From contig NZ_JALBVB010000041.1 of NCBI RefSeq assembly GCF_022669155.1, positions 1 to 64,000 on the forward strand: a DNA stretch of 64,000 bases. The letters are read 5' to 3'. The stretch is from Kineococcus sp. TRM81007 (GTDB lineage Bacteria; Actinomycetota; Actinomycetes; Actinomycetales; Kineococcaceae). Of the stretch, positions 7,685 to 53,700 are shown piece after piece. The position numbers and the translations under genes are program-made. Each line of letters starts with the position of its first letter. The first letter of the stretch is position 1. The notes under the pieces are model-generated. The model made no database searches, had not been told where the DNA came from, and saw only the letters and a program-made list of their open reading frames with translations.

Positions 7685-8791
7685 TCACCGCAGCGGCGGG
7701 GTGCTCTCGCGCACCAGCACCCGGCCGGTGACGTGCTCCACCCGCCGCTGCGGCGCCGTCTCGTCCACCAGGTCGAAGGCGTGGCCGCCGATCTCGGCCA
7801 GCGGCAGGCGAACCGTCGTCAGCGACGGGCTGACGTCGCGCAGCGTGGGGATGTCGTCGAACCCGGCCACCGCCACGTCCCGCGGCACGTCCAGCCCCGC
7901 CTCCCGCACCGCCGCCATGGCACCCACCGCCATCACGTCGTTGGCGGCCAGCACGCACGGCGGCCGCCCGCCCGACGCCGGCAACCCGCGGGCCAGCACC
8001 TCGCCGAGCGCGCCGTGGGCGCCGTCGCGGGTGAACGCGCACTCCAGGTCCAGCACCGGCGGGTGGCCGCGCTCGGTCAGGGCCGCGCGGAAGCCGGAGG
8101 CCCGGTCCACGGCCGTGGCCACGCCCCGCGGGCCGCCCAGCAGCACGAACTCCCGGTAGCCCAGCCCGACCAGCTCCTCGGCGAGGCGGCGGGCCGCCCG
8201 GTGGTTGTCGATGAGCACGGTGTCCACGCCCAGCACGTCCTGGCTGATCGCGGCGACCCGGCCACCGCCGGCGCGGAAGGCGTTCAGCTCGTCGCGCAGC
8301 GCCGCCGTCGCCTCCTCGTCCTGCCAGCGGCTGCCGGCCAGCAGCAGCGCCCGCACCCGCTGCCGGCGCAGCGCCGCCACGTGCGTCACCTCCGTGTCCG
8401 GCGACGAACCGGTCACGGCCAGCGTCACGATGACGTCCGAGGCGGCGGCCCGCTGCATGACACCGGCCGCGATCGTGGAGAAGTACGGGTCGGCGATGTC
8501 GTGCACGACCAGGCCCACGATGTTCGAGCGGCCCCGCGCCATGGCCTGCGCCTGGGCGTTGGGGGAGTAGTCCAGCCGGGCCGCCGCGGCGAGGACCTTC
8601 TCGCGCAGCGGCTCGCCGACCACCCGGCTGCTGCCGTTGAGCACCCGGGACGCGGTCGCCAGGGACACCCCCGCGGCGGTGGCGACGTCGTGCAGGGTCA
8701 CCACGCCGGGGGCCGTGGCCCGCCGGGCGCGGCGCCGGACGGTGCGCTCGACGGTGGGGGCGGGTTCGGGCTCCTGCGGCACGGGACCCAT
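7685..8791 (-). CDS. LacI-family transcriptional regulator
   Basis: A 368-residue DNA-binding repressor. The helix-turn-helix is in VTLHDVATAAGVSLATASRV (about residues 30-50), followed by the hinge and a periplasmic-binding-protein-like effector domain (VGLVVHDIADPYFSTI; VAVAGFDDIPTLRDVSPSLT). A roughly 30-residue basic extension precedes the HTH, so the true start could be a little downstream. It sits about 400 bp from a GH51 arabinofuranosidase whose start region has a CG-centred palindrome, making that gene a plausible target. The sugar effector is unknown. Confidence 0.9.
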   Translation of the reverse strand: MGPVPQEPEPAPTVERTVRRRARRATAPGVVTLHDVATAAGVSLATASRVLNGSSRVVGEPLREKVLAAAARLDYSPNAQAQAMARGRSNIVGLVVHDIADPYFSTIAAGVMQRAAASDVIVTLAVTGSSPDTEVTHVAALRRQRVRALLLAGSRWQDEEATAALRDELNAFRAGGGRVAAISQDVLGVDTVLIDNHRAARRLAEELVGLGYREFVLLGGPRGVATAVDRASGFRAALTERGHPPVLDLECAFTRDGAHGALGEVLARGLPASGGRPPCVLAANDVMAVGAMAAVREAGLDVPRDVAVAGFDDIPTLRDVSPSLTTVRLPLAEIGGHAFDLVDETAPQRRVEHVTGRVLVRESTPPLR

Positions 8792-14127: not shown

Positions 14128-14200
14128 GCCGGCATGGCGCAACTGGTAGCGCACCCGACTTGTAATCGGGCGGTTAGGGGTTCAAGTCCCCTTGCCGGCT
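14128..14200 (+). tRNA. tRNA-Thr(TGT)
   Basis: A complete 73-nt cloverleaf. Acceptor GCCGGCA pairs with TGCCGGC; D-stem GCGC/GCGC; anticodon stem CCCGA/TCGGG around loop CTTGTAA with anticodon TGT; T-stem AGGGG/CCCCT; discriminator T. CCA is not encoded. The part 3' of the att core was supplied by the integrated element: the displaced host version lies at 59032-59073. Confidence 0.97.
14159..14175. other. attL core of the ICE
   Basis: CTTGTAATCGGGCGGTT, 17 bp, spans the anticodon loop, 3' anticodon stem and variable loop of tRNA-Thr. It is repeated identically at 59032-59048; the flanking bases differ on both sides (A/A here, C/C there), which defines the core exactly. Confidence 0.92.
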
Positions 14201-15466
14201 CACTGCCTGACCTGCGGTTTTGCCTTCCGGAGGGGCCCGCTCGTCGCCTTCGTCGGCCTGGCGGGACCACATCGGGACCACATCGGGCTTCCGGCTGTAC
14301 GCCACGGCCGCCGCGATGGTGTCCGCGGCCGTGCGCGCCAGCTCCGGCACGACGTGCATGTAGAGGTCGCGCGTGATTGCGCTCGTCGAGTGCCCGAGGC
14401 GGGCGCTCACGATCTTGACGTCGATGCCGGCAGCCAGGGCGAGGCTCGCGTGCGTGTGCCGCAGGTCGTGCAGCCGGATGACGGGTACACCGGCCTTGCG
14501 GACCAGGTCGATGAACAGGTGGGTGACGGCGTCCGGGCGCAGCAGGTCGCCGTTGTCACGAGCGAAGACGAGGCCGTGGTCGACGTAGCCGTCGCCCCAG
14601 GATCGCCGTTCCCGCTGCTGCCGCTCCCGGTGCTCACGCAGGACGTCGACGGTGGCGGCGTCGATCGGGACGACGCGGGCACCGGCGTGCGTCTTTGGAG
14701 CTCCCAGCTTCGGGCCGGCGCCTGCGTCGATCACCTGTGAGCGGACGGTGATGTGCCCGCGGTCGAGGTCGACGTCCTTCCAGTGGGTGCCGATCGCCTC
14801 ACCGCGGCGCATCCCGGTGAACGTCAGGACGTGGAAGAGCGCGTACAGGCGGTGGTGGCTGCAGGCGTCGAGGAAGCCCGCGATCTGCTGCGGTTCCCAG
14901 ACGGTCGTCTCAGCGCGGCGGTGTTCAGGGAGCTCGACCTGCAGGGCGGGGTTCCACTGGATCAGTCGACGCTTCAGCGCCGTGTTGAGGGCTGATCTCA
15001 AGGTGCGGTGCACGTGGTGCACGGTCGCCGTCCCGGTGCCGGTGTACCGGCCGTTCATCAGGTCGTTGTAAAGGGTGTCGATGTGGTCGGCGCGCAGCGC
15101 GTCGAGACGGTAGTGCCCCAGTGCCGGGGTGAGGTAGCGCCGGACGTGGGTCTCGTAGTTCCGTCGCGTCGTGTCACGCAGGTTCCGCTTGCCCCGCAGC
15201 CAGTCGTCCAGGAACCGCTGCACGGTGAGGGTGTGGTCCGAGGCGATGCCGGCTCGCTGCTTCTCGATCTCCGCGTCCAGCGCCTGCTGCGCCTCGCGCT
15301 TCGTCGAGAAGCCGGATCGAGTCACCTGCCGGCGTCCGCCGTCGGGGCGGCGACCGAAGTCCACCGTGAACTTCCACGGTCCCCGGCAACGGTGCGGCTG
15401 CAGCTCGCCGTTCTGATCGCGCGGGCACGATGCGACGTGTCGCTGGGTGACGTGCCCCTTTCTCAC
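14174..15466 (-). CDS. Tyrosine-family site-specific integrase
   Basis: 430 residues. It has an N-terminal arm-binding region, a SAM-like core-binding domain (about 78-165) and a catalytic domain with Arg220 (TGMRRGEA), His333-Asp-Leu-Arg336 (LHDLRHTH), Gly-His359 (RLGHSTS) and nucleophile Tyr369 (RDLYMHV). The stop codon TAA lies inside the tRNA-Thr gene and overlaps the att core by two bases, so the last residues are encoded by the T-arm and acceptor sequence. GTG start overlaps the xis stop (GTGA). It should catalyse integration at the adjacent tRNA and, with Xis, excision. Confidence 0.95.
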   Translation of the reverse strand: MRKGHVTQRHVASCPRDQNGELQPHRCRGPWKFTVDFGRRPDGGRRQVTRSGFSTKREAQQALDAEIEKQRAGIASDHTLTVQRFLDDWLRGKRNLRDTTRRNYETHVRRYLTPALGHYRLDALRADHIDTLYNDLMNGRYTGTGTATVHHVHRTLRSALNTALKRRLIQWNPALQVELPEHRRAETTVWEPQQIAGFLDACSHHRLYALFHVLTFTGMRRGEAIGTHWKDVDLDRGHITVRSQVIDAGAGPKLGAPKTHAGARVVPIDAATVDVLREHRERQQRERRSWGDGYVDHGLVFARDNGDLLRPDAVTHLFIDLVRKAGVPVIRLHDLRHTHASLALAAGIDVKIVSARLGHSTSAITRDLYMHVVPELARTAADTIAAAVAYSRKPDVVPMWSRQADEGDERAPPEGKTAGQAVSRQGDLNP

Positions 15467-15694: not shown

Positions 15695-16786
15695 TCACTC
15701 GGCCATCGAGACGTGGATGTGGTCGTAGTGGCCGCCGGTGGCGTCCTGCGCGTCGTAGACCCCGCCGCCGGTGTAGGCGCGCCAGCCCTCGTCGGACCGG
15801 GCGCGCGACCAGATGCGGCCCTGCCAGATGACGTAGGACACGCGCAGGGCGTCGGCGTTGGTCTGCAGCCAGATCGCGGCCTGCCAGCCGAGGGCGACGT
15901 CCTCCTGGCCGGGGAACTTCCCGGGGGTGCCGTAGAAGATGTCGCAGCCCTTGCCCTTGGGGTGGTCGGACGTCGGGTTCCAGGCGTGGGCGTCCCAGCA
16001 CGAGGTGGACCGCTTGCCGAACGTGGTGCGGAACTGCGCGAGCATCCACGCCGTCGCCGGGGTGACGCACCCGCCGGTGCCGGTGGGGTCGGGCACGGTG
16101 CACCCGCTCGCCCCGCCGGGGAACGCGGCGGCCGCGCCGGCGGCGGTGAGAGCCGGTGCGGCGGTGTACTGCTCGACGTAGCCGTGGATGGCGTCGAGGT
16201 AGTCGGTGACCTCGCGGACGCACTGCGCACCGCAGCCGGCTTCGCCCGGCGTGGGGATGCCGGTCGCGGAGCCGGTGACGCGGAAGCACCCGGCGATGTG
16301 GCAGACGGCCAGGGCGTCCAGCGGGCTGAGGGCCTTGCCGGTGGCCTGCAGGTGCTCGGTCATCGTCCGCAGGTTCCGGCACATCCAGGGCAGCGCGACG
16401 GCGAAGTGGGTGCGCGGCGTCCACACGGGGTGGTCGTCCCTGGGGCCGCCGGCGACGTCCCAGCCGTCCCCACCTCCGCCGTCGACCCACGTGGAAGGCA
16501 TCAGCTGCAGCAGGCCGGCCGCACCGGCGGGGGAGTAGGCGTGCGGGTTCCAGCTCGACTCCGCCTGGACCTCGGCGACCAGCCACACGAGGGGCAGCTC
16601 GGGGCAGGCGGTGTCGCGGGCGGCCTCGAGGTCGCCGAGCGAGTCGCGCGCCGCCTCGGGCAGTGCTTCCACGTCGAGAGCCTGCCCGGTGACGGCCTGC
16701 GCGTCCTGCGCATCGCCCAGGAGTGCCCCGCCGAGCAGGACGACGCCGCAGATCAGCGCCGTGAGAGCGGCGGCGATCGTCCTCAC
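15695..16786 (-). CDS. Secreted lytic transglycosylase with C-terminal peptidase-like domain (VirB1-like)
   Basis: 363 residues. An N-terminal signal sequence (hydrophobic 5-25, then AQA) precedes a goose-type/SLT lysozyme fold with catalytic Glu in VQAESSWNP and the GAAGLLQLMPSTW motif (about 95-115). A Ser/Thr/Ala/Gly linker leads to a C-terminal region with SDHPKGKGCDIFYG and GGHYDHIHVSM. This resembles the metal-site pattern of D-Ala-D-Ala carboxypeptidase-like (ARB_07466/VanY-like) domains. It would open peptidoglycan for the conjugation channel. It is encoded far from the T4SS operon but in the same element. Confidence 0.85.
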   Translation of the reverse strand: MRTIAAALTALICGVVLLGGALLGDAQDAQAVTGQALDVEALPEAARDSLGDLEAARDTACPELPLVWLVAEVQAESSWNPHAYSPAGAAGLLQLMPSTWVDGGGGDGWDVAGGPRDDHPVWTPRTHFAVALPWMCRNLRTMTEHLQATGKALSPLDALAVCHIAGCFRVTGSATGIPTPGEAGCGAQCVREVTDYLDAIHGYVEQYTAAPALTAAGAAAAFPGGASGCTVPDPTGTGGCVTPATAWMLAQFRTTFGKRSTSCWDAHAWNPTSDHPKGKGCDIFYGTPGKFPGQEDVALGWQAAIWLQTNADALRVSYVIWQGRIWSRARSDEGWRAYTGGGVYDAQDATGGHYDHIHVSMAE

Positions 16787-17024
16787 GGCGGGGCTCCTCC
16801 CGGTAGCGTGACGCGCTCAACAGTCGATCCGTCCGTGCTCCCGAGCCGGGTGGTGTCGGCGGACGGGATGGGACGGGGAGGACAGGTCGGGCACCAAGCG
16901 CCACGGTTCGGCACCGTGGATGCCGTGGTGAGTCGATCGTCCACAACAGTCGACGTTCTGGTCTGAACCATAGACCAGCGTGGACACATGTCAAGGCGCG
17001 GCTGTGGGAGGGAGTGGACGACAC
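16787..17024. other. Divergent regulatory gap
   Basis: 238 bp between the leftward int-side genes and the rightward XRE regulator, so the likely location of the lysogeny-type control promoters. No operator repeat was clear enough to name. Confidence 0.4.
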
Positions 17025-17540
17025 ATGGGGGACGTACGCCCTCGTGGCGGTACGGACGACGAGGACGGCACTCCGCGGACCGCGCCGGACGTCTCCGCAT
17101 CCCGGCCCCGCACGCTGGCCGAGAAGGTCGACCTGCTCTTCCGCACCGTGCACCCCGCCAAGGGCGGCGAGTACAGCTACGAGCACGTCGCCAAGGCCAT
17201 CCGGGAGCGCGGTGGCCCGTCAATCTCCGCCAGCTACCTGTGGCTGCTGCGCAAGGGGGAGCGGGACAACCCGACGCTGCGGCACCTGGAGGCGCTGGCC
17301 GGCTTCTTCGGCGTCCCGCCCGGCTTCTTCTTCGACGACGAGCTGACGGACAGCGTCCACGACCAGCTCGCCCTGCTTGCGCTGCTGCGTGACGGTGACG
17401 TACGAAAGGTCGCGCTCCGAACGTCGGGACTGAGCCGCGAGAGCCTGCAGGCCCTCGGTGAGATGGTCGACCGCGTCCGGAAGCTGGAGGGTCTCCCGGA
17501 GGATCCGGACCTCGGTGGCGGTGACCCTCCTCGCTCGTGA
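17025..17540 (+). CDS. XRE-family transcriptional regulator
   Basis: 171 residues. A disordered N-terminus precedes a helix-turn-helix domain (about 30-105), with YEHVAKAIRERGGPSISASY and LWLLRKGERDNPTLRHLEAL, the Streptomyces-type XRE arrangement where a residue loop separates the helices. Its stop overlaps the start of an ImmA/IrrE peptidase gene (GTGA). In ICEBs1, the ImmR repressor is cleaved by ImmA to induce the element; the same circuit is the likely role here, though these genes face away from int. Confidence 0.88.
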   Translation: MGDVRPRGGTDDEDGTPRTAPDVSASRPRTLAEKVDLLFRTVHPAKGGEYSYEHVAKAIRERGGPSISASYLWLLRKGERDNPTLRHLEALAGFFGVPPGFFFDDELTDSVHDQLALLALLRDGDVRKVALRTSGLSRESLQALGEMVDRVRKLEGLPEDPDLGGGDPPRS

Positions 17541-18067
17541 CGAGAGGAGACGGTGTGCGGCTGTGGGCCACCCGGCGGCAGTGCCGGTCGACGCTGCAGG
17601 AGCTCGCGATCCCGCCGGGGACGACGCTGGAGGGCTTCGTCGACCTGGTGCGGGACCGGCGCGGGCGGCCGCTGACGATCCAGTCGTCACCGGCTGCGGT
17701 CGGGCTGTGCGGAGCGTGGGTCGCCGGCGAGGCGAGTGACCACATCTTCATCGCGCCCGCTGCCACCGGGGTCCGGCGCGCTCACACGCTGGCGCACGAG
17801 CTCGCGCACGTCGTCCTCGGCCACGACGACACCGACGAGGTCGTCGACCCGAACCTCATCCGTCAGTTCTTCCCCGACATCGACCCCTCCACGGTGCGGG
17901 CCGTACTGGGTCGTTCCACCTACACCTCGGCGCAGGAGCGGCAGGCGGAGGTCATGGCCTGGATGCTGCTGGAGACGCTCTCCGGTCCGGAGCCGGCCTC
18001 GCAGCCCGGTCTGGACGGCCCCGACGCGGTCCTCGCGGCGGCGTTCGGGCCCCGCCCGGCCGCCTGA
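17537..18067 (+). CDS. ImmA/IrrE-family zinc metallopeptidase
   Basis: 176 residues. The zinc site is THTLAHELAHVVLGH (HELAH, HExxH form, about residues 75-90), followed by the second-helix region QERQAEVMAWMLLETL, where the Glu is the expected third ligand. GTG start. In this family the protease cuts its cognate XRE repressor, here the coupled upstream gene. The following membrane protein gene starts within the stop codon (ATG overlap). Confidence 0.9.
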   Translation: MTRGDGVRLWATRRQCRSTLQELAIPPGTTLEGFVDLVRDRRGRPLTIQSSPAAVGLCGAWVAGEASDHIFIAPAATGVRRAHTLAHELAHVVLGHDDTDEVVDPNLIRQFFPDIDPSTVRAVLGRSTYTSAQERQAEVMAWMLLETLSGPEPASQPGLDGPDAVLAAAFGPRPAA

Positions 18068-19221
18068 TGCTGGAGCAGCTCTTCCCGCTCGTCGCCGTGC
18101 CCCTGCTGCTCAGCGCACTGCTGCGCGCCCGCGACATCGCGCCGGGCGGCAACGGGGAGCGGCGGGCCGTCGCCCTGGCTCTGCTGACCTTCGGCGTCGC
18201 GGTGCTGCTGGCCACTCCGTGGATCGGTGGGCGGGTCGCGGACGCGGTGGACGTGCCGCAGCTCGACGTGCTGCTCGGCCGCCTCGTCGTCGTCCTCGGG
18301 GTCTTCGCCATCCTCCGTGGTTTCCGGCTGACTCTCGGCCCCGGGCAGAAGCGGCTGCCGCTGGGGCTGGACATCGCCCTCGTGCTCGCGGTCGCCACCA
18401 CCATGACCGTGTCCTTCGTCGTCCAGGCCGTGCCCTACGGCGGTGACCTCATCATCGACCACGGCTACGAGCTGCCGGTGGCGCTCTTCGTGGGCAGCTT
18501 CTCGCTGTACCTGGCGTGGTGCTTCACGGCCATCCTCCGCGGCTGGCGCGGGCTGCGCCGCCAGCCCCACCTCGAGGCGCGTGCGGGGGTGCGGCTGACC
18601 GCCCTGGCCGCCGCGACCGGTCTCCTCTACGTCGCCTCTCGGGTGGCCGGCCAGGTCGCCCTCATGGCCACCGACGCGGCCGGCTTCGTCGAGGTCACCC
18701 GTGAGGTCTGCCTGGCCACCGGGGCCGTGGCCGCGGTGCTGCTGACGCTGGGTGCGTCGGCGTCCGGGCTCGTGGCGGTGGCGCGCCGGCTGCGCGACGA
18801 GGCCCGGCGAGCCGGCCACATGCTCCGGCTCTACCCGCTGTGGCGGGACGTCGTGGCCGTGGCGCCCGAGGTGGCGCTGGCGTCGCGGCGCTTCGCCCCG
18901 TGGCGGCTGGTCAACGGCCGCACGGACTTCTACCGCTACCGCATGGTCATCGAGGTCCTCGACGGCCGGTCGCTGCTGCGGGCCCGTGGCCACGGCCGTC
19001 CGGTGGTCGCCGGCGGCGTGGCGGGTGACGCCGCCGACCTCGTCGCGCTCGTCGACGATGCGCGCAACTGCGTGCGCCGTCGTACGGGTGATTCGGGTGC
19101 CATGGCCGATGACGTCCGCTCGACGATGGCCGATGAGACCGCGCACCTGCTCGCGGTGGCCGCCGAGTACCGCCGGCTGCGGCGTGGCCGGCGGCTGGCC
19201 GGACAGGCGGTGCGCGCGTGA
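18067..19221 (+). CDS. MAB_1171c-like integral membrane protein (DUF6545 C-terminus)
   Basis: 384 residues. About seven hydrophobic segments occupy residues 1-240, then a cytoplasmic region (about 245-384) with LRDEARRAGHMLRLYPLWRD and a conserved Arg/Tyr-rich FYRYRMVIEVLDGR segment. This architecture recurs in actinomycetes next to XRE and ImmA-like genes, and the function is unknown. Tight overlaps on both sides put it in a four-gene operon with XRE, ImmA and a PAP2-like protein. Confidence 0.75.
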   Translation: MLEQLFPLVAVPLLLSALLRARDIAPGGNGERRAVALALLTFGVAVLLATPWIGGRVADAVDVPQLDVLLGRLVVVLGVFAILRGFRLTLGPGQKRLPLGLDIALVLAVATTMTVSFVVQAVPYGGDLIIDHGYELPVALFVGSFSLYLAWCFTAILRGWRGLRRQPHLEARAGVRLTALAAATGLLYVASRVAGQVALMATDAAGFVEVTREVCLATGAVAAVLLTLGASASGLVAVARRLRDEARRAGHMLRLYPLWRDVVAVAPEVALASRRFAPWRLVNGRTDFYRYRMVIEVLDGRSLLRARGHGRPVVAGGVAGDAADLVALVDDARNCVRRRTGDSGAMADDVRSTMADETAHLLAVAAEYRRLRRGRRLAGQAVRA

Positions 19222-19826
19222 CCGCGCCGGAGCGCACGGCTGCTGTCCGTTCGCCACGTGGCCGCCGGCTGGCCGATGTGGTCAACGACGTCCTGGCGCC
19301 GTGGAACCTGGCCGTGACCGTCCCGCCGGTCGTCGGCGCCATGACTACCGTGCCGTGGCCGCGAGGGCTCGCGCTGGGGTTGGTGACGAGCCTGCTCGTC
19401 GGCGTCGTGCCGGGGCTGCTGATCTGGGCCGGCCGCCGCTCGGGCCGCTACGGCGACAAGTTCCTGCGCGACCGCCGGCACCGGCCGCGGTTTCTGGCCG
19501 TCGTGACCGGTCTCGTCGTCCTGGCGTGGGTGGTCACCTGGGCGCTGGGTGCCTCCGCCTCCTCCTTGGTCTTCCTCGGCGTCATGGTGCTCATGGCCGT
19601 CATCGCGGCCGTCGTCTCGCGCTGGTGGAAGATCTCGATGCACTCGATGGTCGTCACCGGCTCGGTCGTCCTGCTCGTGGTGCTGGACGTGCGGCTGGTG
19701 CCGATGCTCGTGCTGGTGCCGGCGGTGTGCTGGGCGCGCTTGGTGACCTCGGCGCACACGCCGGCGCAGCTCGCAGCAGGGGCGGTCGTAGGTGCGGTCC
19801 TCGGCGTCGTCGCGGGCATCGCCTGA
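19218..19826 (+). CDS. PAP2-like membrane protein
   Basis: 202 residues with about five to six transmembrane segments. KISMHSMVVTGSVV and RLVTSAHTPAQLAAGAVVG resemble the second and third phosphatase motifs of membrane PAP2 enzymes (SGH and SRxxxGxHxxxDxxxG), but the catalytic residues are only partly kept: His in MHS and His in SAH remain. Activity is therefore doubtful. GTG start overlapping the previous stop (GTGA). Confidence 0.7.
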   Translation: MTAPERTAAVRSPRGRRLADVVNDVLAPWNLAVTVPPVVGAMTTVPWPRGLALGLVTSLLVGVVPGLLIWAGRRSGRYGDKFLRDRRHRPRFLAVVTGLVVLAWVVTWALGASASSLVFLGVMVLMAVIAAVVSRWWKISMHSMVVTGSVVLLVVLDVRLVPMLVLVPAVCWARLVTSAHTPAQLAAGAVVGAVLGVVAGIA

Positions 19827-32849: not shown

Positions 32850-34007
32850 ATGAAGCCCAGCAGCCCGCTCCACGGGCCGGACACCGGGCGCGAGGCCGCC
32901 ATGGCCACCGCGCGACCGGCCACGGCCCGGTCGGCCACGGTGCGACCGGCCACGCTGCGATCGGCTGCAGCCGGCAGGCGGTGGCACCGGGCCGGGCGGG
33001 CACTGCTCAGCACGGCCGCTCTCACGCTCGTGGTGGCCTGTGCACCCGCCCCGGAGCAGCCGCAGGAAGCCGCGGGCGCGAGCACCTCGAGCACTTCCGC
33101 GTCCCCGGCACCGGCGGCATCGACGGCGACGACACCGTCCGCCTCGCCCAGCACCGCGCCCCCTGCACAGACGAACACTGCGGAGGACGGCACCGCGCTG
33201 GCGGGTACGGCCCTGGCGCTGCTGGACACGCTGCAGGTCAAGGGCCGCGCCCCGAAGACCGGCTACTCGCGCGAGGCCTTCGGCGACGGCTGGGTCGACA
33301 CCGACCACAACGGCTGCGACACGAGGAACGACGTCCTGGCCCGCGACCTGGACGCCGAGACGTTCAAGCCCGGCACCCGCGACTGCGTCGTGGCCACCGG
33401 CACCCTGGCCGACCCCTACAGCGGCACCACCATCGCCTTCACCCGCGGGCAGGACACCTCCTCCGACGTGCAGATCGACCACGTCGTGGCCCTCTCGGAC
33501 GCCTGGCAGAAGGGCGCGCAGCAGTGGGACGACGCCACGCGGGTCGCCTTCGCCAACGACGGCCTGGAGTTGCTGGCCGTGGACGGGCCACTGAACGGAC
33601 AGAAGGGCGATGGGGACGCGGCCACCTGGCTGCCGCCGAACCGTGCTTACCGGTGCAGCTACGTGGCGAGGCAGGTGGCCATCAAGGCCACCTGGGGCCT
33701 GTGGGTCACTGCTGCGGAGAAGGACGCCATCGCCGCCGTCCTGGCCACCTGCCCGCAGCAGCCGGTGCCCACCACCGTCACCGCGCCCGCCCAGCCCACC
33801 GCCACTGCCACTGCCACTGCCACTGCCCAACCCTCCGCCGACGCGCAGCCCTCCGCCGACGTGCCCGAGCCGGCACCGGCTGACGAGGCCGTCTCCTACG
33901 CCAACTGCGACGCGGTGCGCGCTGCCGGTGCGGATCCGATCCGCACCGGTGAGCCCGGCTACAGCCGCCAGCTGGACCGCGACGGAGACGGCATCGGCTG
34001 CGAGTAG
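32850..34007 (+). CDS. Secreted HNH nuclease lipoprotein with Excalibur domain
   Basis: 385 residues. A long basic N-terminus leads to a signal sequence ending in lipobox LVVAC (Cys about residue 64; ATG 32901 is an alternative start). A Ser/Thr/Pro linker follows, then an HNH/DUF1524-type domain with VQIDHVVALSDAWQKG, NDGLELLAVDGPLNGQKGD and the late CSYVARQVAIK. After another Thr/Ala repeat linker, a C-terminal Excalibur calcium-binding-like module ends DRDGDGIGCE. Predicted extracellular nuclease on the cell surface. The Excalibur module is duplicated in the gene at 34514. Confidence 0.88.
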   Translation: MKPSSPLHGPDTGREAAMATARPATARSATVRPATLRSAAAGRRWHRAGRALLSTAALTLVVACAPAPEQPQEAAGASTSSTSASPAPAASTATTPSASPSTAPPAQTNTAEDGTALAGTALALLDTLQVKGRAPKTGYSREAFGDGWVDTDHNGCDTRNDVLARDLDAETFKPGTRDCVVATGTLADPYSGTTIAFTRGQDTSSDVQIDHVVALSDAWQKGAQQWDDATRVAFANDGLELLAVDGPLNGQKGDGDAATWLPPNRAYRCSYVARQVAIKATWGLWVTAAEKDAIAAVLATCPQQPVPTTVTAPAQPTATATATATAQPSADAQPSADVPEPAPADEAVSYANCDAVRAAGADPIRTGEPGYSRQLDRDGDGIGCE

Positions 34008-43782: not shown

Positions 43783-45251
43783 ACCTCCTCCGCCCCCAAC
43801 CCCGAGCCCGCGCCGTTCCACCAGCGTGGGGCTGGCGCGCACCACGTGCCGGCCGTGTGGCGCACGTGGCCAGCGCCCCCGAGTACCAGGCCACGACCGT
43901 GCAGGCGTGCGGGCTGTTCCCCTTCGTCGCCGGCTCCGGCTCGCCCTCGGTGGGCGTTCCCGTCGGCCGACACATGATGTGGGGCGAGGTCGTCTGCATG
44001 GACCCCTTCGCCTGGCTCGACGCGGGCCTCGTCACCAACCGCGGCCTCACCGTCCTCGGGCAGCCCGGCACCGGCAAGTCCGCCATGCTCAAGCGGCTGT
44101 CCCGGGGGATGCTCGCCTTCGGCGTCCGGCCGCTGTTCCTCGGCGACCTCAAACCCGACTACTCATCCGTCGTAACCGCCGCGGGTGGGCAGGTGCTGCG
44201 GGTGGGGCGTGGCCTCGACCGCATCAACCCCCTCGACGCCGGGCCGCTCGGCGCCGCGCTGACGCGCCTGTCCGGCAGCGCCGCGCAACGCCTCCGCCTG
44301 GAGGTCCGCGGACGCCGCCTGTCGGCCACCCTGGCACTCTGCTCGCTCGTCCGGCGCCACGACCGCGTCAACAACGGCGAGGAAACCGTCCTCGGTGCAG
44401 CCGTCGACCTGCTCACCGACCGCCTGCCCGACGGCGTCGACCCCACCATCCCGGATGTGCTGTGCGTCATTCGGGAGAGCCCGGACCGCCTCGTGGCCGC
44501 CGCCGAGGTGGACGACGGACCGGCCTACCGCGCCGAGACGAAGGAGCTGCGCCAGACCCTCAACCTGCTCTGCGAGGGATCGCTCAAGGGCGTGTTCGAC
44601 GGCCCGACCTCTCGTCCGATCGACCTCGACGCACCCGCCGTGAGCGTCGACATCTCCGCCGTCGCCGCGTCCGGGGACACCCTCGTCGCCGCAGCGATGC
44701 TGTCGACCTGGTCCTACGGGTTCGCCGTCATCGACGCCTCCACCGCGCTGGCCGAGGCGGGCCTCGCCCCGCGCCGGCGGTACTTCGCCGTCATGGACGA
44801 GCTCTGGCGAGCCCTGCGCGGAGCGCCCGGCCTCGTCGACCACGCAGACGCCTTGACCCGCGTCTACCGCGGCCGGGACGTCGCGCACGCCATGGCCACG
44901 CACTCCCTCGACGACCTCGCTGCGCTGCCGAGCGAGGAGGACCGCTCCAAGGCCCGTGGATTCATCGAGCGCAACGCCATCACGGTCCTGGCCGGCCTGC
45001 CGCCGCGGGAGCTGGAAGAAGTCACCCGGGTCGTCTCGCTGTCCAGCCGCGAGGTGTCGATGGTCTCGTCGTGGTCGGCGCCGGAGTCCTGGCAGACCGG
45101 CGCCCGCCACCCCGGCCGCGGGAAGTACCTGCTCAAGACCGGCCAGCGTGTCGGCATCCCCGTCGAGATGGAACTCGTCGGCAACGAACCCGCCCTCTAC
45201 GACACCGATAGCAGCCACCGGGCCGTTGTCCAGAGGGAGGAGGAGGCGTGA
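43779..45251 (+). CDS. VirB4/TraE-like T4SS ATPase
   Basis: 490 residues: Walker A GQPGTGKSAM (about 92-101), LKPDYSSVV, Walker B YFAVMDELWRAL (about 332-343) and a following Arg-rich segment. It lacks the VirB4 N-terminal domain, which is in the preceding gene, so ATPase and N-domain are encoded separately. It would power channel assembly and substrate transfer. ATGA overlap on both sides. Confidence 0.9.
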   Translation: MNLLRPQPRARAVPPAWGWRAPRAGRVAHVASAPEYQATTVQACGLFPFVAGSGSPSVGVPVGRHMMWGEVVCMDPFAWLDAGLVTNRGLTVLGQPGTGKSAMLKRLSRGMLAFGVRPLFLGDLKPDYSSVVTAAGGQVLRVGRGLDRINPLDAGPLGAALTRLSGSAAQRLRLEVRGRRLSATLALCSLVRRHDRVNNGEETVLGAAVDLLTDRLPDGVDPTIPDVLCVIRESPDRLVAAAEVDDGPAYRAETKELRQTLNLLCEGSLKGVFDGPTSRPIDLDAPAVSVDISAVAASGDTLVAAAMLSTWSYGFAVIDASTALAEAGLAPRRRYFAVMDELWRALRGAPGLVDHADALTRVYRGRDVAHAMATHSLDDLAALPSEEDRSKARGFIERNAITVLAGLPPRELEEVTRVVSLSSREVSMVSSWSAPESWQTGARHPGRGKYLLKTGQRVGIPVEMELVGNEPALYDTDSSHRAVVQREEEA

Positions 45252-47032
45252 GCCGCCCGCTCGAACCCTCCGGCGGGTTCCTGCCGCCGGAGAGCCGCTT
45301 CCCGATGCTGCTCGTCGCCGCCGTCTGGGGTGGTGTCGTCCTCGCTGGCGCGGCGTGGTCGGGGGGTGCGGCCGCGAGCTGGATCACCGGGCACGGCTGG
45401 CAGGGACCGGCCTTCGGGGTGGACTTCGCACGGGCCCTCCTGACCGAGGGGCCGCCCCGGTTGTGGCCGGCGGCCCCAGCGGCCGTCGTGTGGGCGGGCG
45501 TGCTGACGGCCGTCGTCGCCGTCGTAATGCTCGGAGTGGGGCTCGTGCTCGCCTGGCGGCGGACGGTCGGTACGACCAGCCCGCACGGCCTGGCCGGACC
45601 GCGCGACCTCGCGAACCTGTTGCCGCCGGCCAGCGTGCAGCGGGCCCGGTCGCTGCGGCCGTCGCTGGCAGCCTCCGCGGAGGAACCGTCCGGGGCTGCC
45701 CTCGGGATCACCCTTGGCGTCTTGGCAGGAACGTCGCACCGGCGACGGGGCGATCGGACGGTGCGGGCGTCGTGGGAGGACGTCCTGCTGGCCGTCATGG
45801 CACCCCGGGCAGGGAAGACCACCTCCCTGGCCGTTCCGACGGTGCTGGACGCGCCCGGTGCGGTGGTGGCGACGTCGAACAAGTCCGACCTGTGGGCCGC
45901 GACCGCGACGCTGCGGGCCGCTGACACCGGCGAGGCGGTGTGGACGTTCGACCCGCAGGCCATCACCGGCACCGCGCAGACGTGGTGGTGGAACCCGCTG
46001 ACGGCTGTGACGTCGGTGGAGGAGGCGTCCCGGCTGGCCGGGCACTTCGTGCAGGAGGTCCGCGGGGAGAAGTCCGCCCGCGACTTCTGGAGCTCCGCCG
46101 CGCACGACCTGCTGACCGCCCTGCTGCTGGCAGCCGCGGCGTCGCAGCGCACGCTGCACGACGTCTACGAGTGGCTCAACGACCCCGTCATCCCCACCCC
46201 GGCCGCGCTGCTGCGCGAGCACGGCTACCACGCCATCGCCGCCTCCCTCACCGGCCGGCAGAACGGTGCTCCGGAGACCCGTGACGGCGTCTACGAGACC
46301 GCCCGCACCGCGGCGCAGTGCCTGCGCGACGACGCCATCATGGCCTGGGTCACCCCACCGGCCACAGACCTGCCGCAGCTGGACACCGCCGGCTTCGCGA
46401 CCTCGCGGCAGACACTGTTCCTGCTGTCCAAGGACGGGGCGGGCGCCGCCGGGCCGCTGGTGGCGGCACTGACCGACCGGGTCATGCGCGACGGGGTACG
46501 TGCCGCGGAACGCCGCGGTGGGCGACTGGACCCGCCGATGGTCGTCGTTCTCGACGAGGCCGCCAACGTGTGCCGCATCTCCGACCTGCCCGACCTGTAC
46601 AGCCACCTCGGCTCCCGCGGCATCGTGCCGCTGACGATCCTGCAGTCGTACCGCCAGGGCGTGCGGGTGTGGGGGGAGACGGGCATGGACACGTTGTGGT
46701 CGGCGGCCACGGTGAAGCTGCTCGGGGCCGGCATCGACGATGCCAAGCTCGCCGAGGACGTCTCCCGCCTCATCGGCGACCACGACGTGACCGTCCGCTC
46801 CTTCTCCGACGGCGACCGCCGGCGCAGCACTTCCACGTCGCTGCGCCGCCAGCGGATCCTGCCGCCGGAAGACGTCCGGGCACTCGATCGCGGGACGGCC
46901 CTGCTGCTCGCGACGGGGCTGCGGGTGGCGAGGCTGACGTTGCTGCCGTACTACCGGGGACCGCGGGCCGCGGAGATCACTGCTGCGCTGGAGAAGGCGA
47001 CCGCCGACGCCGTCACGGCGGGTCCGCGGTGA
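45248..47032 (+). CDS. VirD4/TraG-like type IV coupling protein
   Basis: 594 residues. Two N-terminal membrane helices (about 18-40 and 78-100), then the coupling-protein ATPase: Walker A MAPRAGKTTSLAVP (about 184-197), TSNKSDLW, Walker B PMVVVLDEAANVCRI (about 427-441) and the TraM-recognition-like ILQSYRQGVRVWGE. It would deliver the relaxase-DNA complex to the channel. GTG start overlapping the previous stop. Confidence 0.92.
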   Translation: MSRPLEPSGGFLPPESRFPMLLVAAVWGGVVLAGAAWSGGAAASWITGHGWQGPAFGVDFARALLTEGPPRLWPAAPAAVVWAGVLTAVVAVVMLGVGLVLAWRRTVGTTSPHGLAGPRDLANLLPPASVQRARSLRPSLAASAEEPSGAALGITLGVLAGTSHRRRGDRTVRASWEDVLLAVMAPRAGKTTSLAVPTVLDAPGAVVATSNKSDLWAATATLRAADTGEAVWTFDPQAITGTAQTWWWNPLTAVTSVEEASRLAGHFVQEVRGEKSARDFWSSAAHDLLTALLLAAAASQRTLHDVYEWLNDPVIPTPAALLREHGYHAIAASLTGRQNGAPETRDGVYETARTAAQCLRDDAIMAWVTPPATDLPQLDTAGFATSRQTLFLLSKDGAGAAGPLVAALTDRVMRDGVRAAERRGGRLDPPMVVVLDEAANVCRISDLPDLYSHLGSRGIVPLTILQSYRQGVRVWGETGMDTLWSAATVKLLGAGIDDAKLAEDVSRLIGDHDVTVRSFSDGDRRRSTSTSLRRQRILPPEDVRALDRGTALLLATGLRVARLTLLPYYRGPRAAEITAALEKATADAVTAGPR

Positions 47033-47538: not shown

Positions 47539-47793
47539 ATGTCGCCGCTTGCCCCCAGGCTCCATGTCTTGGCCACCGCTTACGCGGGCGCTCACACCTT
47601 GAGTAAGGACGACATGGAGAGCGCCGAGACCTATGTGCGCATCCAGGCGATGAAGAATCTCTTTTCGGCGCCCACCACCGTCCGCAAGGATAACGCTATT
47701 GCGTCGACGGTCCTATGGGACGACAGCAAGCCGAAGCTCGGCTTGCTTCCTGAAAAATGCATGCGCCCGCTTCGCGAGATTGCTCTAAATTGA
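47539..47793 (+). CDS. Small first component of the Avs-like operon
   Basis: 84 residues: RLHVLATAYAGAHTLSKDDM and ETYVRIQAMKNLFSAP, ending MRPLREIALN. Helical, no known family. Its stop overlaps the ATG of the giant STAND gene (ATGA), so the two are translationally coupled. It resembles in size and placement the small middle components of three-gene defence systems, but I see no sequence match. Confidence 0.6.
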   Translation: MSPLAPRLHVLATAYAGAHTLSKDDMESAETYVRIQAMKNLFSAPTTVRKDNAIASTVLWDDSKPKLGLLPEKCMRPLREIALN

Positions 47794-50700
47794 TGGCACA
47801 GGCGGATCTTCTCAGGGATAGTCGAGATGGAGATCAGTTCCACTACCACTGGGCTGCCCGGCAAGCCCTTCGACTGTTGCAGCCTGGTACCGACCTAGCC
47901 GCCATCGTCATCGAGGGCGTTTCCACTGACGATACGGCCGATACGAGCGGCGATGAGGTAGTCGATCTCGCCGAGTACTGGGGGTCCCTTGCCCTCGGCA
48001 GCGCAACCAAAGTCATCTACAAACAACTGAAGCACTCCACCGAGGCCCCTGACAAGGAACGCACCTCTTCATACCTCCGAAAAACCCTGATCGGATTTGC
48101 CAAGAAGTATCGATCGGTGCTGGAGGAGTATCCAAGCGCCGCCGATCGGGTGTGGTTCGAGTTCGTATCCGTACCTCCGCTCGCTGACCAGGTAAGGACA
48201 GCGCTGGAAGACATCCAAACAGGACGGGATGCACTCGCCCCTCGCGCCGCTCAATACATCCGAGAACAACTAGGAACGTCACTGACCGACGAGCAGTCGC
48301 GCTCCTTCGTTAGTCGGCTTATTCTCCGCGACCGTGAACCCGGGCTCGTAAGCCTGCGCCAGGAACTTCGATCCCAGGTTTCGTCGTTCCTACCCGGAGC
48401 TGCTGCAGCGCACGATCTGCTTTTGCGGGAAATGGTTTCGACCCGCGCATCGTCCATCGCAGGCTTCGATCCCATCATCACCCGCACGACCGTCCTGAGC
48501 ACTCTTCAAGCAACTGAAGATGATCTTCTTCCTGCGCCGAACTTGATCGACACCCCTGCACCAGTGATCGAGCTGCCGCAGGTCGCCGAGTTGGCGCAGA
48601 TTCTCGTCGACGCGTCAGCGCCGGTGCTGGCTCACGCCACCGGGGGCATGGGCAAGAGCGTGCTTGCGTCAACCATCGGAGGCTCGCTACCGCGAGGGTC
48701 GGTGACACTGGTCTACGACTGCTTCGGCGCTGGGACGTACCGCCGGCTGAGCAGTAGGCGGCACGAACACCGCCAAGCCTTTTTGCAACTTTCCAACGAG
48801 CTGGCCGCGAAAGGCCTGTGCGGACCGGTTCTTCCGTCGGACACCGCGAACTCACGCGCCTACATGCGGATCTTTCTGGATCGAGTCGCCACCGCCGCAC
48901 GTACCGTGGCCGAGAATTCGCCTGAAGCGATCCTCCTTCTGGTCATCGACGCTGCCGACAACGCGGTGATGGCAGCTGGCGATGCCGGTACCGCAGCGTT
49001 CGTCTCTGACCTCATCCGAGAAGACCTCCCTTCATGCACCCGCCTCCTCATCCTGTGCCGGACCGAGCGCCGGAGCCTGCTGAACCCGCCGCCCGCCTGC
49101 ATCGATGTGCCTCTGCGCGGCTTCAACGAGGAGCACAGTACCGCTCACCTGACGAGCCGCTTCGGTCCGGCAAGTAAAGCCGACGGCGCAGAATTCCATC
49201 GCCTCACCCATGGCAACCCGCGGGTGCAGGCCCTGGTGATGCAGAACGCATCGAGCGTCGAGAGTGTCTTGCAATCCCTGGGGGAAGTGCAGCACGACGG
49301 TAGCGACCTCTTCGCGGACCTGATGACGCGCAGACTGAATGAGATCCGAGAGGAGTTCGGTGGAGCGGCCGACCAGATCGACCGCCTCTGCCGAGCCATG
49401 GCAGCGCTGCGTCCTCGCATTCCCGTCGACGTACTCGCCGCGATCGCCGGCGTCGAGCCGACGTTCATCCGCTCCTTCGCCGCCGAGTTCGACCGATCCA
49501 TATTCTTCGATCAGGACACCGTTCAGTTCCGAGACGAGCCGACCGAGACGTGGTTCCGTTCCACATTTCGTCCAAGCAGAGACGCGCTGCTGTCCTTGAT
49601 CGGAGACGTCCGCCCGCTCGCCGAAGTGCACCCGTACCTGTCGGCGACACTGCCTCAGTTGCTCTACGAGGCAGGTCTGGTCCGAGAGCTCGTGGATCTA
49701 GCCTTGTCATCCGACGGTCTGGCCGCCGCAAGTGACTTAGAGCAACGCGAGATCGCTCACCAGCGCGCTCAGTTCGCCCTCAAGGCCGCGCTGCGCGACG
49801 GCCGCGAGGTTGATGCCGCCCGACTTGCATGGACCGCTGGTGGCTTGCACGCCGGGGAGACGCGTCGCGTGAAGCTCATCAGGGGCAACACGGACCTGGC
49901 TGGGGAGTTCCTCGACGGGGAGACCATCGACTCCCTCCTGGCAGGCCGAGCGCTGGCTGGCGAGTGGCCGGGCTCGCACTTGCACATGGAAGGAGCCTTG
50001 CTGGCCGCCACCGGTGATGTACACCTGGCCAGGAACCGTTTGCGCAGCGCTCAGGACTGGATGCGGCAGTGGATCCGGCAGGCCGTCGCCAGGGGCGAAG
50101 ATCATAAAGTCTCCGACGACGACATCGCCGAGCTCGCCTACGGAATCCTAACCGTCTCCGGTGCAGCTGCGTGTGTGGACTTCCTGGGCGCCTGGTCCCC
50201 CTCGTGGGTGGCGTATCAAGTGGGACGGCGAGTTGCGGGCCGCCTCGTCGATCGCAACAAGGTCGGAGAGCTCGAGGAGCTCGCCGTCGCCGCAGGCAAG
50301 GTCGAGCGCCTGCAGCTCGCGGTGGTCAGTGTCGCGCTCGAAGCAGGCGTCCTGCTGGGACCCGCAGCGGTTCGGCGCACGATCCGGATGCTCAAGAAGC
50401 ACCGCGCTCCGATCAACCTCGGCGCCGAGGAGCTCACCGGACTCGGTGCTGGCCACCGCGCTGGCATGGGCGCACTCCCCATCGCATGGGTTTTGAGTTT
50501 AGGTACGCGCCACGGTGTGGTGGACATGACGCAAGCCCGTAGAATCATAATGCGGTATTTGCCCGCGACTTTGGGCCACGATGCCGGTAGCTGGTTCGAC
50601 CACGGTGCAGGAACACGAGGCCTGTTGTTCGCCTTCACCCTCGACTCGGTGCTGCGCGATGAAGAGCTCGATGTCTCATCCATCGCCCCGCCAGGCGTGC

Positions 50701-53700
50701 GCAAGGATTGGAAGGCGAGCGGAGCACCCCGCACCCGCCAACTGGCGGACTTCACCTCCAACGTCCTTCCTCTCACTCGGTGGATGAGGCTGTACGTGGA
50801 AGCGGTCACCAGAGAGGCACCCGACGCAGCTGCACTTTCAAGCCAGTTCGACGCTCTCGCCGGGGCTGATTTCAAGACCTACGGTGACTACGAGACTCCG
50901 CGTCTGCTGATCAACAGCATCGCCCGCCTCGCTGTCCGTCTCCTGTCCCAGCTGCCAGTACGCGTCGAGCGCAATGACTTCTTCAATCGTTGGGCGACTG
51001 AAAACTTCCGGCACCTCACCTGGGCCACGGTCATTGACGTGGTGCGCATCAGCTCACGCTGCGAGGACTTGCACGAGCTGAACGTGGAGCTGGCTGCTCT
51101 GCTGCGCGACGCGTTGCAGAGAGATGACTCACCGGCCGAAGAACGCTATGAAGCGCTGGTGTCCCTCGCGCGAGCCACCTACGCGTTCGATCCGGAGGAG
51201 TCGCGTGCCGACTTCGACAGGGCGCTGGAGATCACCTCCCGCCTCGGGGAGGACGTGCACGACCGCTGGAGGGCTCTGGGGCGCATCGCCGAGCACGCGT
51301 GCGGTTCCCAGGAGCAGCCGGCACAGGCTTACCGCCTGGCGCAAGTCGCTGAAAGCCTGCAGTCCTACCTGGGTGGGGACTCCACCGTCGCGATCGACGT
51401 GCTCCCCCAGATTCAGGGGTTTAGCGCTGCCGCCGGTGTCGCGATAGCCGCACGCTGGCGCGACCGCCGGGTGGCATCCCTTGGCCAGCTCGCGCGCGCT
51501 TTGACCAGCAGTGACGCTGCTCCCACCAGCGCTGACCCGCGGTGGGCCCTGGGCATGCTCCCGATGGGAGCTGAAGTCAGCCACGCCCACCTCAACAGAC
51601 TTGGCCCGCCTGGGAGTGCAGCACGCGCGGATGCTGAGGCTGTGATCGATGAGTGGTTCCGGCCCCTCAAGTCCAGTGGATCAGCGATGAGCTCCACTGC
51701 ACTCGGCGGAACCGCCGACTCATCTCACATCACCGCGGATGCTTTTAGATCGGATCCCGAGGAGCTTCTGACTGCTGAGCTGTTCGCCGACTTCGACCTG
51801 ACCACACCCGCCAGTTGGGACGCTGCAGTACGCGTGGCCGGTGATGGTAGGCGCGAGTGGCTTCGTAAGGAGCTGCTGTTGGACCACGCCGCGAGATGTC
51901 CGCTAAACAGGTTGAGGACGGTGCTTGAGGCAGCCGCGGACTCATCCCTGATGCAGCCCCATGACTACAACGGGGTCATCGAGCGGCTCGCCGCGCGACC
52001 TGGCCGACTGCCGCAAGCAGCGCGTGGAGCAGTTGCACAGCTGATCGACCGGCTTGTCGAGCGATTCGCCAAGAAGATGACCGCGAGCGGGTACGACCCG
52101 ATCGATCTTCAGGCTGTCGAGTCGCTGTGTGGCCGTACGCCTGCCTCGGTGGGTGCGGAGGCGCTCCGCCAGCTCGGCTCCGTGCCCGAGCTGCTCACCT
52201 CGCGCGAGTGCTACGAGCTCGTCGCCCGGTTGACTAGCCGGGCACACCCGTCAGACAACGCTGCGGTTCTGACCGATGCGCTCGAGAGCTTTTCGCAGGT
52301 CGCAGCCGCTGACGCGTGCGACGGATCCTTCGAGCACCTACCTGTTCCTCCTGAAGACCTGGCCGTGTGCATCGCAGCGTTCGTGTGGTGCGCCGCTGGC
52401 GACCCCGCGAAGACCACGCGCTGGAACGCTGCGCACACCATCCGGCTCTGGGTGGCCCTTGGCTGTACGGACCTGGTGGAGTCGCTGGTGCGTTGCGCCA
52501 TCGGTGACGTGGACGTGACTGCGTTCGTCGGGTCAGGTCTCGTCTTCTACGACAAGCACGCGCTGATGTGGACCGTAATGGCCCTGGCGCGCGCCTGTGA
52601 TGATCACCGGTCCCTCGCCAGTCTGATCAAGGTGACACCGCTGGTTCCCTTGCTGCACCGCATCATTTTCACTGATCCTCCGAACGCTGTGTTGCAGCAC
52701 AGCGCTCGCGACGTGCTAAGGCGCTTGCACGAGGTCGGTGACATCGCCCTGACACCGGAAGAGCTCCAGCACCTGATTACGATCAATCGTCCTGCTGTGA
52801 TCGTCGAAGAGCAGTATGGATCGCGACCCATGGCGACGTCGGTGCGGCTGGACGGACCTAGCACCGCCGCGGACCCGTCGTTAGCCGGTGAGAAACCACA
52901 ACTGTCAGGGAGGTCGGAGGCTGACACGCGCTTCTCGTTCTTCATGGACTTCCAAGATCACTGGTGTGGTCAGCTGGGTCGTGCCTTCGGCGTCACCGGC
53001 CAGCGCGTCCTGCAGCTGGTCGACGAGGTAATCGTCGACAGGTGGAGATCGCCGTTCAGGGGTGGCATTGACGACGACCACCGCCATGGGCTGAAGTTGT
53101 ACGGCGACGGCGGCACGTATGTGCACAAGTTCAGCTGGCCCGAAGAGGAAGATCTCGACTTCTACCTCGCCCTTCACGCCCTCTACCAAGTCGCCGGACA
53201 CCTCGCACGCCACTACCCGGTCTATCGGTCGTCGAAGGACGACCGGGACGACTTCGCGCAGTGGCTCGACGACCACGTCCCCACTCGCCACGACGGACGG
53301 TGGGTCTTCGACCGCCGCGACCCCGTGCCGGCCCATCTCGCGCGCACCGACCCCTCCTCGCAGGCCGGTTCTTCCGAGCTGAGCAGGAGTGAGTGGCTCT
53401 GCGACGTCCCTGCGTCTCGGTTCACCCCAATTCTCGCGCCCAGCGACGGGTGGGTGACCCTCGACGGGAACTGGACCGCGACCTTCTGGGACCGCTACGA
53501 AACGGTGACGGTACGCAGCGCACTCGTCGAGCAGGGTGTTGCTCGCGCTCTCGTGGCCGCCCTTCGCACCGCACCCGACCTGCACGCCATCCACTTGCCG
53601 AGCGAATCCGACCACGATGACATCCCTACTGATCTTGCTAAGCACTACTGCGTCTTGGACGCCGTCGAAGACAGCCACCCGGGTGCAGGCATCGACACCC

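Follow-up and report, generated by a model that had tools for sequence, protein, structure and literature searches.

A conserved trio of EspR-like regulator, ImmA-like peptidase and DUF6545 protein of seven helices with an optional PAP2-fold partner: a candidate signal-gated switch on a Kineococcus integrative element

The four-gene locus and its protein families

Here, we describe four plus-strand open reading frames (ORFs) at positions 17025-19826 of a 64,000-nucleotide stretch of Kineococcus sp. TRM81007 (contig NZ_JALBVB010000041.1), which is referred to as the window. They encode an XRE regulator, an ImmA-like peptidase, a seven-helix membrane protein of the MAB_1171c/DUF6545 family (MAB for short) and a PAP2-fold membrane protein (Table 1). 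With the longest starts, neighbouring frames overlap by 4, 1 and 4 bases; a simple gene caller favours later starts for ImmA (17555) and PAP2 (19278), which makes two of the overlaps start-dependent. The original prediction for this stretch had claimed four coupled genes, XRE, ImmA, MAB_1171c-like and PAP2-like, and both the ORF calls and the protein identities bear this out.

Table 1. Features of the four-gene locus and of the surrounding element (window coordinates)
Feature	Position	Strand	Basis or remark
EspR-family XRE regulator, 171 amino acids, putative repressor and protease substrate	17025..17540	+	ATG start; phmmer to EspR structures, alignment
ImmA/IrrE-like M78 zinc peptidase (predicted), 176 amino acids	17537..18067	+	PF06114, invariant HExxH; start GTG 17537 or GTG 17555
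MAB_1171c/DUF6545 seven-helix receptor-like membrane protein (predicted), 384 amino acids	18067..19221	+	NF042915, PF20182, AlphaFold2, VIA-align, positive-inside topology
PAP2-fold membrane protein (predicted), 202 amino acids	19218..19826	+	conserved S140, H142, R174, H180; Q184 replaces usual Asp
SLT lytic-transglycosylase-like secreted protein, first gene of divergent set	15695..16786	-	PF01464 33.8 bits; one of seven homologous divergent genes
xis-like small helix-turn-helix protein, 69 amino acids	15463..15672	-	PF12728 20.9 bits, cut-off 27; named from its position beside the integrase
Tyrosine integrase of the element	14174..15466	-	PF00589 78.7 bits; 3' end overlaps tRNA-Thr
tRNA-Thr, apparent integration site	14128..14201	+	overlap with integrase 3' end
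Promoter/operator-like block between divergent operons	16941..17001	.	minus-strand TTGACA (16994-16989), N16, TATGGT (16972-16967)
TraG/TraD-type coupling protein	45248-47032		farther right of the cassette

By its sequence, the first protein is a member of the EspR family. Residues ~26-157 align to the EspR chains of 4ndw, 3r1f, 3qf3 and 3qwg in a phmmer search of PDB sequences (E values from 8e-19 to 4e-16), and the homology covers the helix-turn-helix (HTH) as well as the C-terminal region. No match to the window XRE was found in phages.

The second gene product is, judged from its residue pattern, a short zinc peptidase of the M78 (ImmA/IrrE-like) type. H87, E88, H91, E134 and E138 (HExxH...E) are invariant across 20 aligned ImmA-like sequences, nine of which match Peptidase_M78 at E<=0.01. 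A single-sequence search of the PDB gave no relative, and the profile search gave just weak generic metalloprotease matches.

For the third protein, membership of the MAB_1171c family is indicated by 108.8 bits against NF042915 (curated cut-off 100), with 52.9 bits against DUF6545 (PF20182; cut-off 24.4). The AlphaFold2 model, built on 62 sequences (predicted local distance difference test, pLDDT, 89.6; predicted template modelling score 0.81), has seven transmembrane (TM) helices, TM1-7, at ~2-240; TM7 runs unbroken to 265 and is followed by a helical cytosolic part to 383. In a structure comparison with VIA-align, the best 50 rows listed are all G-protein-coupled receptors (GPCRs), which align over about residues 1-245 (root-mean-square deviation 3.7-4.8 A over 211-245 residues) at Z scores of 16.5 to 14.8, although helical bundles may reach Z ~14 through their common arrangement alone. 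As a rough control, the PAP2 model, also helical and from a membrane protein, stays at Z <=7.0 against unrelated chains. The loops agree with the model: in the 62 sequences, a net positive charge was found for loop 1-2 in 58, loop 3-4 in 58 and loop 5-6 in 60, as opposed to loop 2-3 in 9 and loop 4-5 in 8, while loop 6-7 is positive in 20 and negative in 16. This pattern fits an N-out/C-in topology, so that the predicted model combines seven TM helices, an outside N-terminus and GPCR-like packing. Mean conservation is 0.32-0.44 in the TM helices and 0.51-0.55 in cytosolic residues 241-310.

Three further results count against the receptor reading. With Foldseek the best E value is 0.012, and rhodopsins, Kv4 channels and a respiratory-complex chain are among the top 50 as well. 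GPCR homology by sequence was considered and dropped, since nothing significant to GPCRs or rhodopsins appeared and the best profile match among PDB sequences is a free fatty acid receptor 2 fusion at E 0.24. Cytosolic residues 311-384 are conserved at 0.37, not above the TM helices. Because the Foldseek match is weak and a sequence relation is lacking, we claim a GPCR-like arrangement for the modelled protein and not membership of the GPCRs. A receptor architecture, that is, seven N-out/C-in helices with a conserved juxtamembrane cytosolic part, is confidently predicted.

The NCBI name of the family is 'putative transporter'. Among the 25 of 36 Pfam families listed for the 62 members, no known catalytic domain was found in the DUF6545 protein, and the sole transporter family is MFS_MOT1 (2 of 62 members, best E 0.12). 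Open-licence papers, among the matches listed, name MAB_1171c solely in a Mycobacterium abscessus mutant study and DUF6545 not at all; the excerpted text of that study gives about half the biofilm for the MAB_1171c mutant (PMC8707978). The annotation as a transporter thus rests on little in the literature. Members of the family occur in, among others, Streptomyces, Amycolatopsis, Kineococcus and Mycobacterium plasmids.

The window PAP2 protein alone reaches E 0.21 against PF01569, and 19 of 23 aligned PAP2-like sequences match this family at E<=0.01. Catalytic PAP2 proteins carry the motifs Kx6RP, PSGH and SRx5Hx3D. Compared with these, SxH and Rx5H are invariant, the Asp is exchanged for Gln and the first motif is altered. 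S140, H142, R174 and H180 do not vary in 19 aligned sequences or in a closer set of 23, whereas Q184, at the usual place of the Asp, is invariant in the 23 close sequences and variable in the wider 19. The earlier term 'degenerate' was too strong. The Ser, the Arg and both active-site His are kept, with Gln for Asp. The AlphaFold2 model (pLDDT 91.1) shows the PAP2 fold. In VIA-align, PAP2-type enzymes occupy the first 12 rows (Z 8.8-11.5), followed in row 13 by a soluble acid phosphatase (Z 7.2), and the best unrelated row is a ferritin (Z 7.0). The PAP2 profile found nothing in PDB sequences above its best match, glucose-6-phosphatase at E 0.093.

Co-conservation of the trio and the variable fourth gene

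Loci were collected by two routes. The first, via MAB, covered 297 genomes of the order, 47 of which have a match at E<=0.001 and just 17 a match over the curated cut-off, so that many family members fall below it; 40 of 56 matches were fetched, and 39 distinct genes remained after calling. The second, via XRE, took the best 80 of 117 GTDB loci and three viral contigs. The gene caller misses genes, e.g., the ImmA of locus L059 (recovered later) and the DUF6545 gene of L160 (annotated in the record).

Both routes lead to the same arrangement. Of the 39 MAB-selected loci, 38 have ImmA directly upstream, 36 have XRE within four genes and 19 have PAP2. Among 81 XRE-route loci with a called XRE, 67 hold XRE, ImmA and MAB (23 of these also PAP2) and 12 hold XRE alone, some of them being contig ends; two further loci have no called XRE. 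The 63 XRE-selected loci that bear DUF6545 contain ImmA in 62 and XRE in 60 cases. Pooling yields 113 distinct MAB/DUF6545 genes (39 MAB-selected, 63 XRE-selected, one viral and ten from plasmids) with ImmA directly upstream in 111, an EspR-like XRE within four genes in 104 and PAP2 in 37. No gap separates ImmA from MAB (overlapping or abutting, gap <=0) in 32 of 38 MAB-selected and 41 of 62 XRE-selected loci. The EspR-like regulator, the ImmA-like peptidase and the seven-helix DUF6545 protein hence constitute a conserved, often overlapping unit.

A search gene by gene in the 297 genomes retained, as strong matches and after removal of second gene pieces, 41 of 56 rows for MAB, 61 of 83 for XRE, 44 of 73 for ImmA and 54 of 65 for PAP2. 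Both ImmA and XRE lie within 3 kb of 39 of the 41 strong MAB matches, which argues for a linkage beyond chance. Strong ImmA matches have XRE within the same distance in 44 of 44 and MAB in 40 of 44 cases, although the XRE and ImmA profiles were derived from MAB-selected loci, which biases these counts toward linkage. Among the four ImmA exceptions, one locus has an unlabelled seven-TM gene (L177), two do have MAB (L181, L183) and one has none (L179). MAB accompanies 40 of 61 strong XRE and 20 of 54 strong PAP2 matches. The original prediction was open to refutation if the membrane genes were absent from most such XRE-ImmA pairs: this is not so for the seven-helix gene, as the 40 of 44 ImmA matches demonstrate, and it is so for PAP2 (present in 37 of the pooled 113 and 19 of the 39 MAB-selected loci).

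Co-conservation away from integrative and conjugative elements (ICEs), which had been put forward as a check, was indeed found: the trio occurs in 12-Mb chromosomal contigs without markers of the window type (L083, L124, L131) and on plasmids. A tblastn search with the window DUF6545 protein, which is blind to divergent members, found none in phages or plasmids; plasmids matched via XRE (68 records, ten of them inspected) do carry DUF6545 genes.

Directly downstream of the 113 MAB genes we find PAP2 in 34 cases, another gene within 100 bp in 24, XRE in 6, a gene on the opposite strand in 32, a gene on the same strand farther off in 15 and a contig end in 2. The count of 37 PAP2 genes within four genes includes three on the opposite strand (L128, L144, L159). 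In L159, a Rhodococcus antarcticus plasmid, a PAP2-like gene (7996-8526, E 1e-42) adjoins the DUF6545 gene on the opposite strand, which shows that linkage of PAP2 does not require its membership in the operon. Stand-alone PAP2 relatives have, among the matches listed, neighbour genes that vary by lineage.

Pfam searches with 24 other downstream genes, a slightly different set from the 24 counted within 100 bp, gave alpha/beta-hydrolase (6), cytochrome P450 (4), MpaB/Lcp oxygenase (3), amidase (2), amidohydrolase (2), flavin adenine dinucleotide (FAD)-binding monooxygenase type (2), polysaccharide deacetylase (1) and Rrf2 regulator (1). Plasmid annotation adds P450 as the fourth gene in three Mycobacterium plasmids, followed by a methyltransferase in two, and an FAD monooxygenase in another plasmid. 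The fourth gene is thus optional and variable. That enzymes of small-molecule type are frequent in this place is a lead, beside 32 loci that have no downstream partner.

Some single loci depart from the usual layout. In L062 and L063, two PAP2-like genes flank a single ImmA-DUF6545 pair, and XRE comes last. L161, a plasmid of Mycobacterium intracellulare subsp. chimaera, carries two tandem HTH-ImmA-DUF6545-cytochrome P450 cassettes with a methyltransferase after the first. On a Streptomyces clavuligerus plasmid (L155), genes for a 'ParH-like' ImmA, MAB_1171c and an EspR-like protein lie near an LxmA-type precursor gene of a ribosomally synthesised and post-translationally modified peptide (RiPP), which suggests that this cassette controls a lanthipeptide cluster.

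The integrative element and its divergent operon

The window XRE gene is divergent from slt-xis-int, and 238 bp (16787-17024) separate the two operons. As in ImmR/ImmA-type modules, an HTH gene is paired with an HExxH metallopeptidase and the regulator is divergent from excision genes. The int-xis-SLT/XRE arrangement is repeated in Kineococcus and Quadrisphaera-type loci, and eight related elements adjoin five different tRNA genes: tRNA-Thr, -Lys (two), -Phe, -Arg ACG (three) and -Arg TCT. The search for a further copy of the 3' end of tRNA-Thr, which would mark the right end of the element, gave nothing in the window or in the genome.

Minus-strand TTGACA-N16-TAnnnT is present in seven of eight related intergenic regions; K. 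siccus is the one without. In the window, the promoter scan picks it up with 10 of 12 bases (one found, 0.2 expected). None of 500 shuffles is as good as the match of the window region to K. siccus, K. indalonis or K. rubinsiae (0/500 each), the latter two matches lying over the part nearest XRE. K. indalonis and K. rubinsiae in turn match the Quadrisphaera-type regions: 0-2 of 500 shuffles equal the match in five of the six pairs, and 15 of 500 do in the remaining one. An intergenic block common to all eight elements had been considered and was withdrawn, as the window region resembles the Quadrisphaera-type regions no better than shuffled sequences do.

PAP2-bearing cassettes are enriched for markers of the window-element type (20 of 36, compared with 5 of 67 without PAP2; Fisher p 1.3e-7), a p-value that is optimistic, the loci being related and the markers taken from the window element. 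On the Rhodococcus plasmid, the trio is divergent from a transglycosylase/C40 gene, and the same run includes a gene of the SCO6880 family, which we take to be a conjugation component. The window copy looks tied to ICE control. The original prediction had preferred a separate role 'rather than ICE induction', and this part is not upheld: the cassette faces slt-xis-int, recurs in related elements, and its PAP2-bearing copies are enriched for ICE-type neighbours.

At five other loci (L043, L046, L055, L135, L140), the genes divergent from XRE form one cluster, and an ArdC N-terminal domain (an anti-restriction family) occurs in five of 66 divergent genes scanned. A mobile-element origin is suggested for the cassettes of these five loci, too.

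Farther along the window, three plus-strand regions were recorded. A 385-amino-acid protein with GmrSD_C nuclease-like and Excalibur domains is encoded at 32850-34007. On the same element, a gene for 2105 amino acids (47757-54074) matches NACHT weakly, with 21.0 bits below a cut-off of 26.7, and may be a NACHT-type defence gene. At 59335-61127, an AbiEii-type nucleotidyltransferase toxin gene (60048-61127; PF08843, 78.3 bits) is overlapped upstream by a gene for 238 amino acids, an arrangement that resembles an AbiE pair.

A putative signal-gated switch, its rivals and related systems

In ICEBs1, according to the excerpted text of PMC6540685, the excisionase is repressed by ImmR, and RapI stimulates ImmA to cleave ImmR; an immR-immA module is also described for TnSmu1 in the excerpt of PMC10233336. 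By analogy to ICEBs1, we assign to the EspR-like protein the putative role of a repressor, to ImmA that of an anti-repressor and to the seven-helix protein that of a gating receptor. We lean, by a modest degree, to the view that the four genes make up one signal-transduction cassette, a signal-gated switch that cleaves its repressor. The EspR-like protein would act as a repressor on slt-xis-int, the divergent operon, as well as on its own promoter. A ligand, small or lipid-like, would bind to the seven-helix protein, which may hold or release the ImmA-like peptidase through its TM7 helix and cytosolic part. Once active, the peptidase would cleave the EspR-like repressor, slt, xis and int would be expressed, and the element would excise and transfer. 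The PAP2-fold protein may make, remove or tune the ligand, e.g., a prenyl or lipid phosphate, or else serve as a second sensor subunit; a PAP2 protein acting as ligand enzyme would be the boldest step of the model. Elsewhere, on chromosomes and plasmids, other outputs and other enzymes are presumably coupled to this trio. The original idea that a membrane signal feeds the protease is plausible: the seven-helix gene is co-conserved with XRE-ImmA, mostly overlaps or abuts ImmA and has a receptor-like predicted fold.

Several facts weigh against such a switch. The peptidase passes its Pfam model PF06114 by just 0.2 bits (22.2, cut-off 22). Gene distances within the trio are correlated (Spearman 0.78-0.80), which is equally expected under plain shared descent. 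EspR is known as a nucleoid-associated regulator and is not known to be a protease substrate. At seven loci (L165-L171, the shortest stretches spanning 6 and 8 kb), an EspR-like XRE occurs without an ImmA, MAB or PAP2 frame in the stretch covered; one of these is a K. rubinsiae element that has int-xis-SLT-XRE and no cassette frames. We therefore regard the cassette as an add-on to an EspR-controlled element, whose ICE control can dispense with it. In the 297 genomes, 21 of 61 strong XRE matches are without MAB within 3 kb; closer reading revealed a seven-helix gene beside five of these 21 (L177 with two, L181, L182, L183). Finally, when the window intergenic region is compared with three Quadrisphaera-type regions, 117-369 of 500 shuffles are as good.

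A more far-reaching version, which we consider rather improbable, is bacterial chemical communication. The fourth gene (PAP2, cytochrome P450, alpha/beta-hydrolase, MpaB/Lcp oxygenase, FAD monooxygenase or amidase) would make or remove a lipophilic, perhaps isoprenoid signal, DUF6545 would read it as a GPCR-like receptor and activate the soluble metalloprotease, and the protease would destroy the EspR-type repressor. The output would be conjugation in mobile elements and, at other loci, natural-product or envelope genes.

A different view keeps DUF6545 as a transporter and PAP2 as an envelope enzyme, with XRE and ImmA regulating an envelope operon on an internal signal such as DNA damage, redox or zinc, for which IrrE/DdrO is the model. 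We judge this unlikely, a shade more so than chemical communication. The family name and the halved biofilm of the M. abscessus mutant (excerpt of PMC8707978) are in its favour. Yet seven helices with N-out orientation and a conserved juxtamembrane part do not suit it, the only transporter family among those listed is the MFS_MOT1 mentioned above, and ImmA stays directly upstream in 111 of 113 loci although the fourth gene varies.

Markedly less probable is a toxin-antitoxin or anti-phage cassette, in which membrane effectors would be released once ImmA destroys XRE, as in cyclic-oligonucleotide-based antiphage signalling systems (CBASS) controlled by CapH/CapP. Its basis is a weak resemblance to capH (E 0.0007) and capP (E 0.0001), a 'toxin' annotation on two plasmid copies of the peptidase and the further possible conflict genes on the same element. 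PADLOC returned weak capH, capP and RmrA matches only, so this candidate was set aside, and with it the originally proposed separate defence cassette; neither membrane protein matches PADLOC at E<=1, and no CBASS cyclase or effector genes are found among the four operon proteins. In addition, the XRE match to EspR extends beyond the HTH, and enzyme and RiPP genes adjoin other copies. A conjugation-immunity or exclusion module, whose membrane proteins would detect or exclude a further copy of the element, is very unlikely in spite of the preference of PAP2-bearing copies for loci with mobile-element markers, since the trio is also found in the chromosomal contigs without window-type markers (L083, L124, L131) and beside P450, amidase and lanthipeptide genes.

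In known repressor-protease switches it is often unclear what triggers the protease that cuts the repressor, and a dedicated membrane receptor beside the protease would open this question to a direct test. If the signal-gated switch is real, bacteria would have a receptor-to-protease-to-repressor pathway, a 'putative transporter' family would be re-annotated, EspR-type regulators would gain a candidate mode of regulated removal, and a mode of induction would be suggested for one group of actinobacterial integrative elements. Among the matches listed from open-licence literature, there is no description of the trio or of DUF6545 as a receptor.

In BlaR1/BlaI and MecR1/MecI, a membrane sensor activates a zinc protease and the repressor is inactivated. 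The chain of sensor, protease and repressor is alike, here predicted from genes; BlaR1 unites sensor and protease, together with an extracellular binding domain, in a single polypeptide, whereas here they are two genes with a seven-helix candidate sensor. CBASS CapH/CapP shares the pair of HTH regulator and metallopeptidase, with a weak resemblance of the hidden Markov models, and differs in that no cyclase or effector is matched among our four proteins and a seven-helix protein is present. EspR of M. tuberculosis is similar to the window XRE in sequence (residues 26-157, E 8e-19), and to our knowledge it has no ImmA protease or DUF6545 partner. With the ImmR/ImmA modules of ICEBs1 and TnSmu1, as far as the excerpts of PMC6540685 and PMC10233336 describe them, the locus shares an HTH regulator and an ImmA-type metalloprotease in control of an ICE. 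It differs by its EspR-family regulator, by a seven-helix candidate activator in place of cytosolic RapI or RecA, and by the PAP2-fold gene that follows. The 7TMR-DISM and other bacterial seven-TM receptors, in the excerpt of PMC1592074, likewise carry a cytosolic signalling part after their seven helices; there, the signalling modules reside in the same chain, whereas DUF6545 pairs with a separate protease gene.

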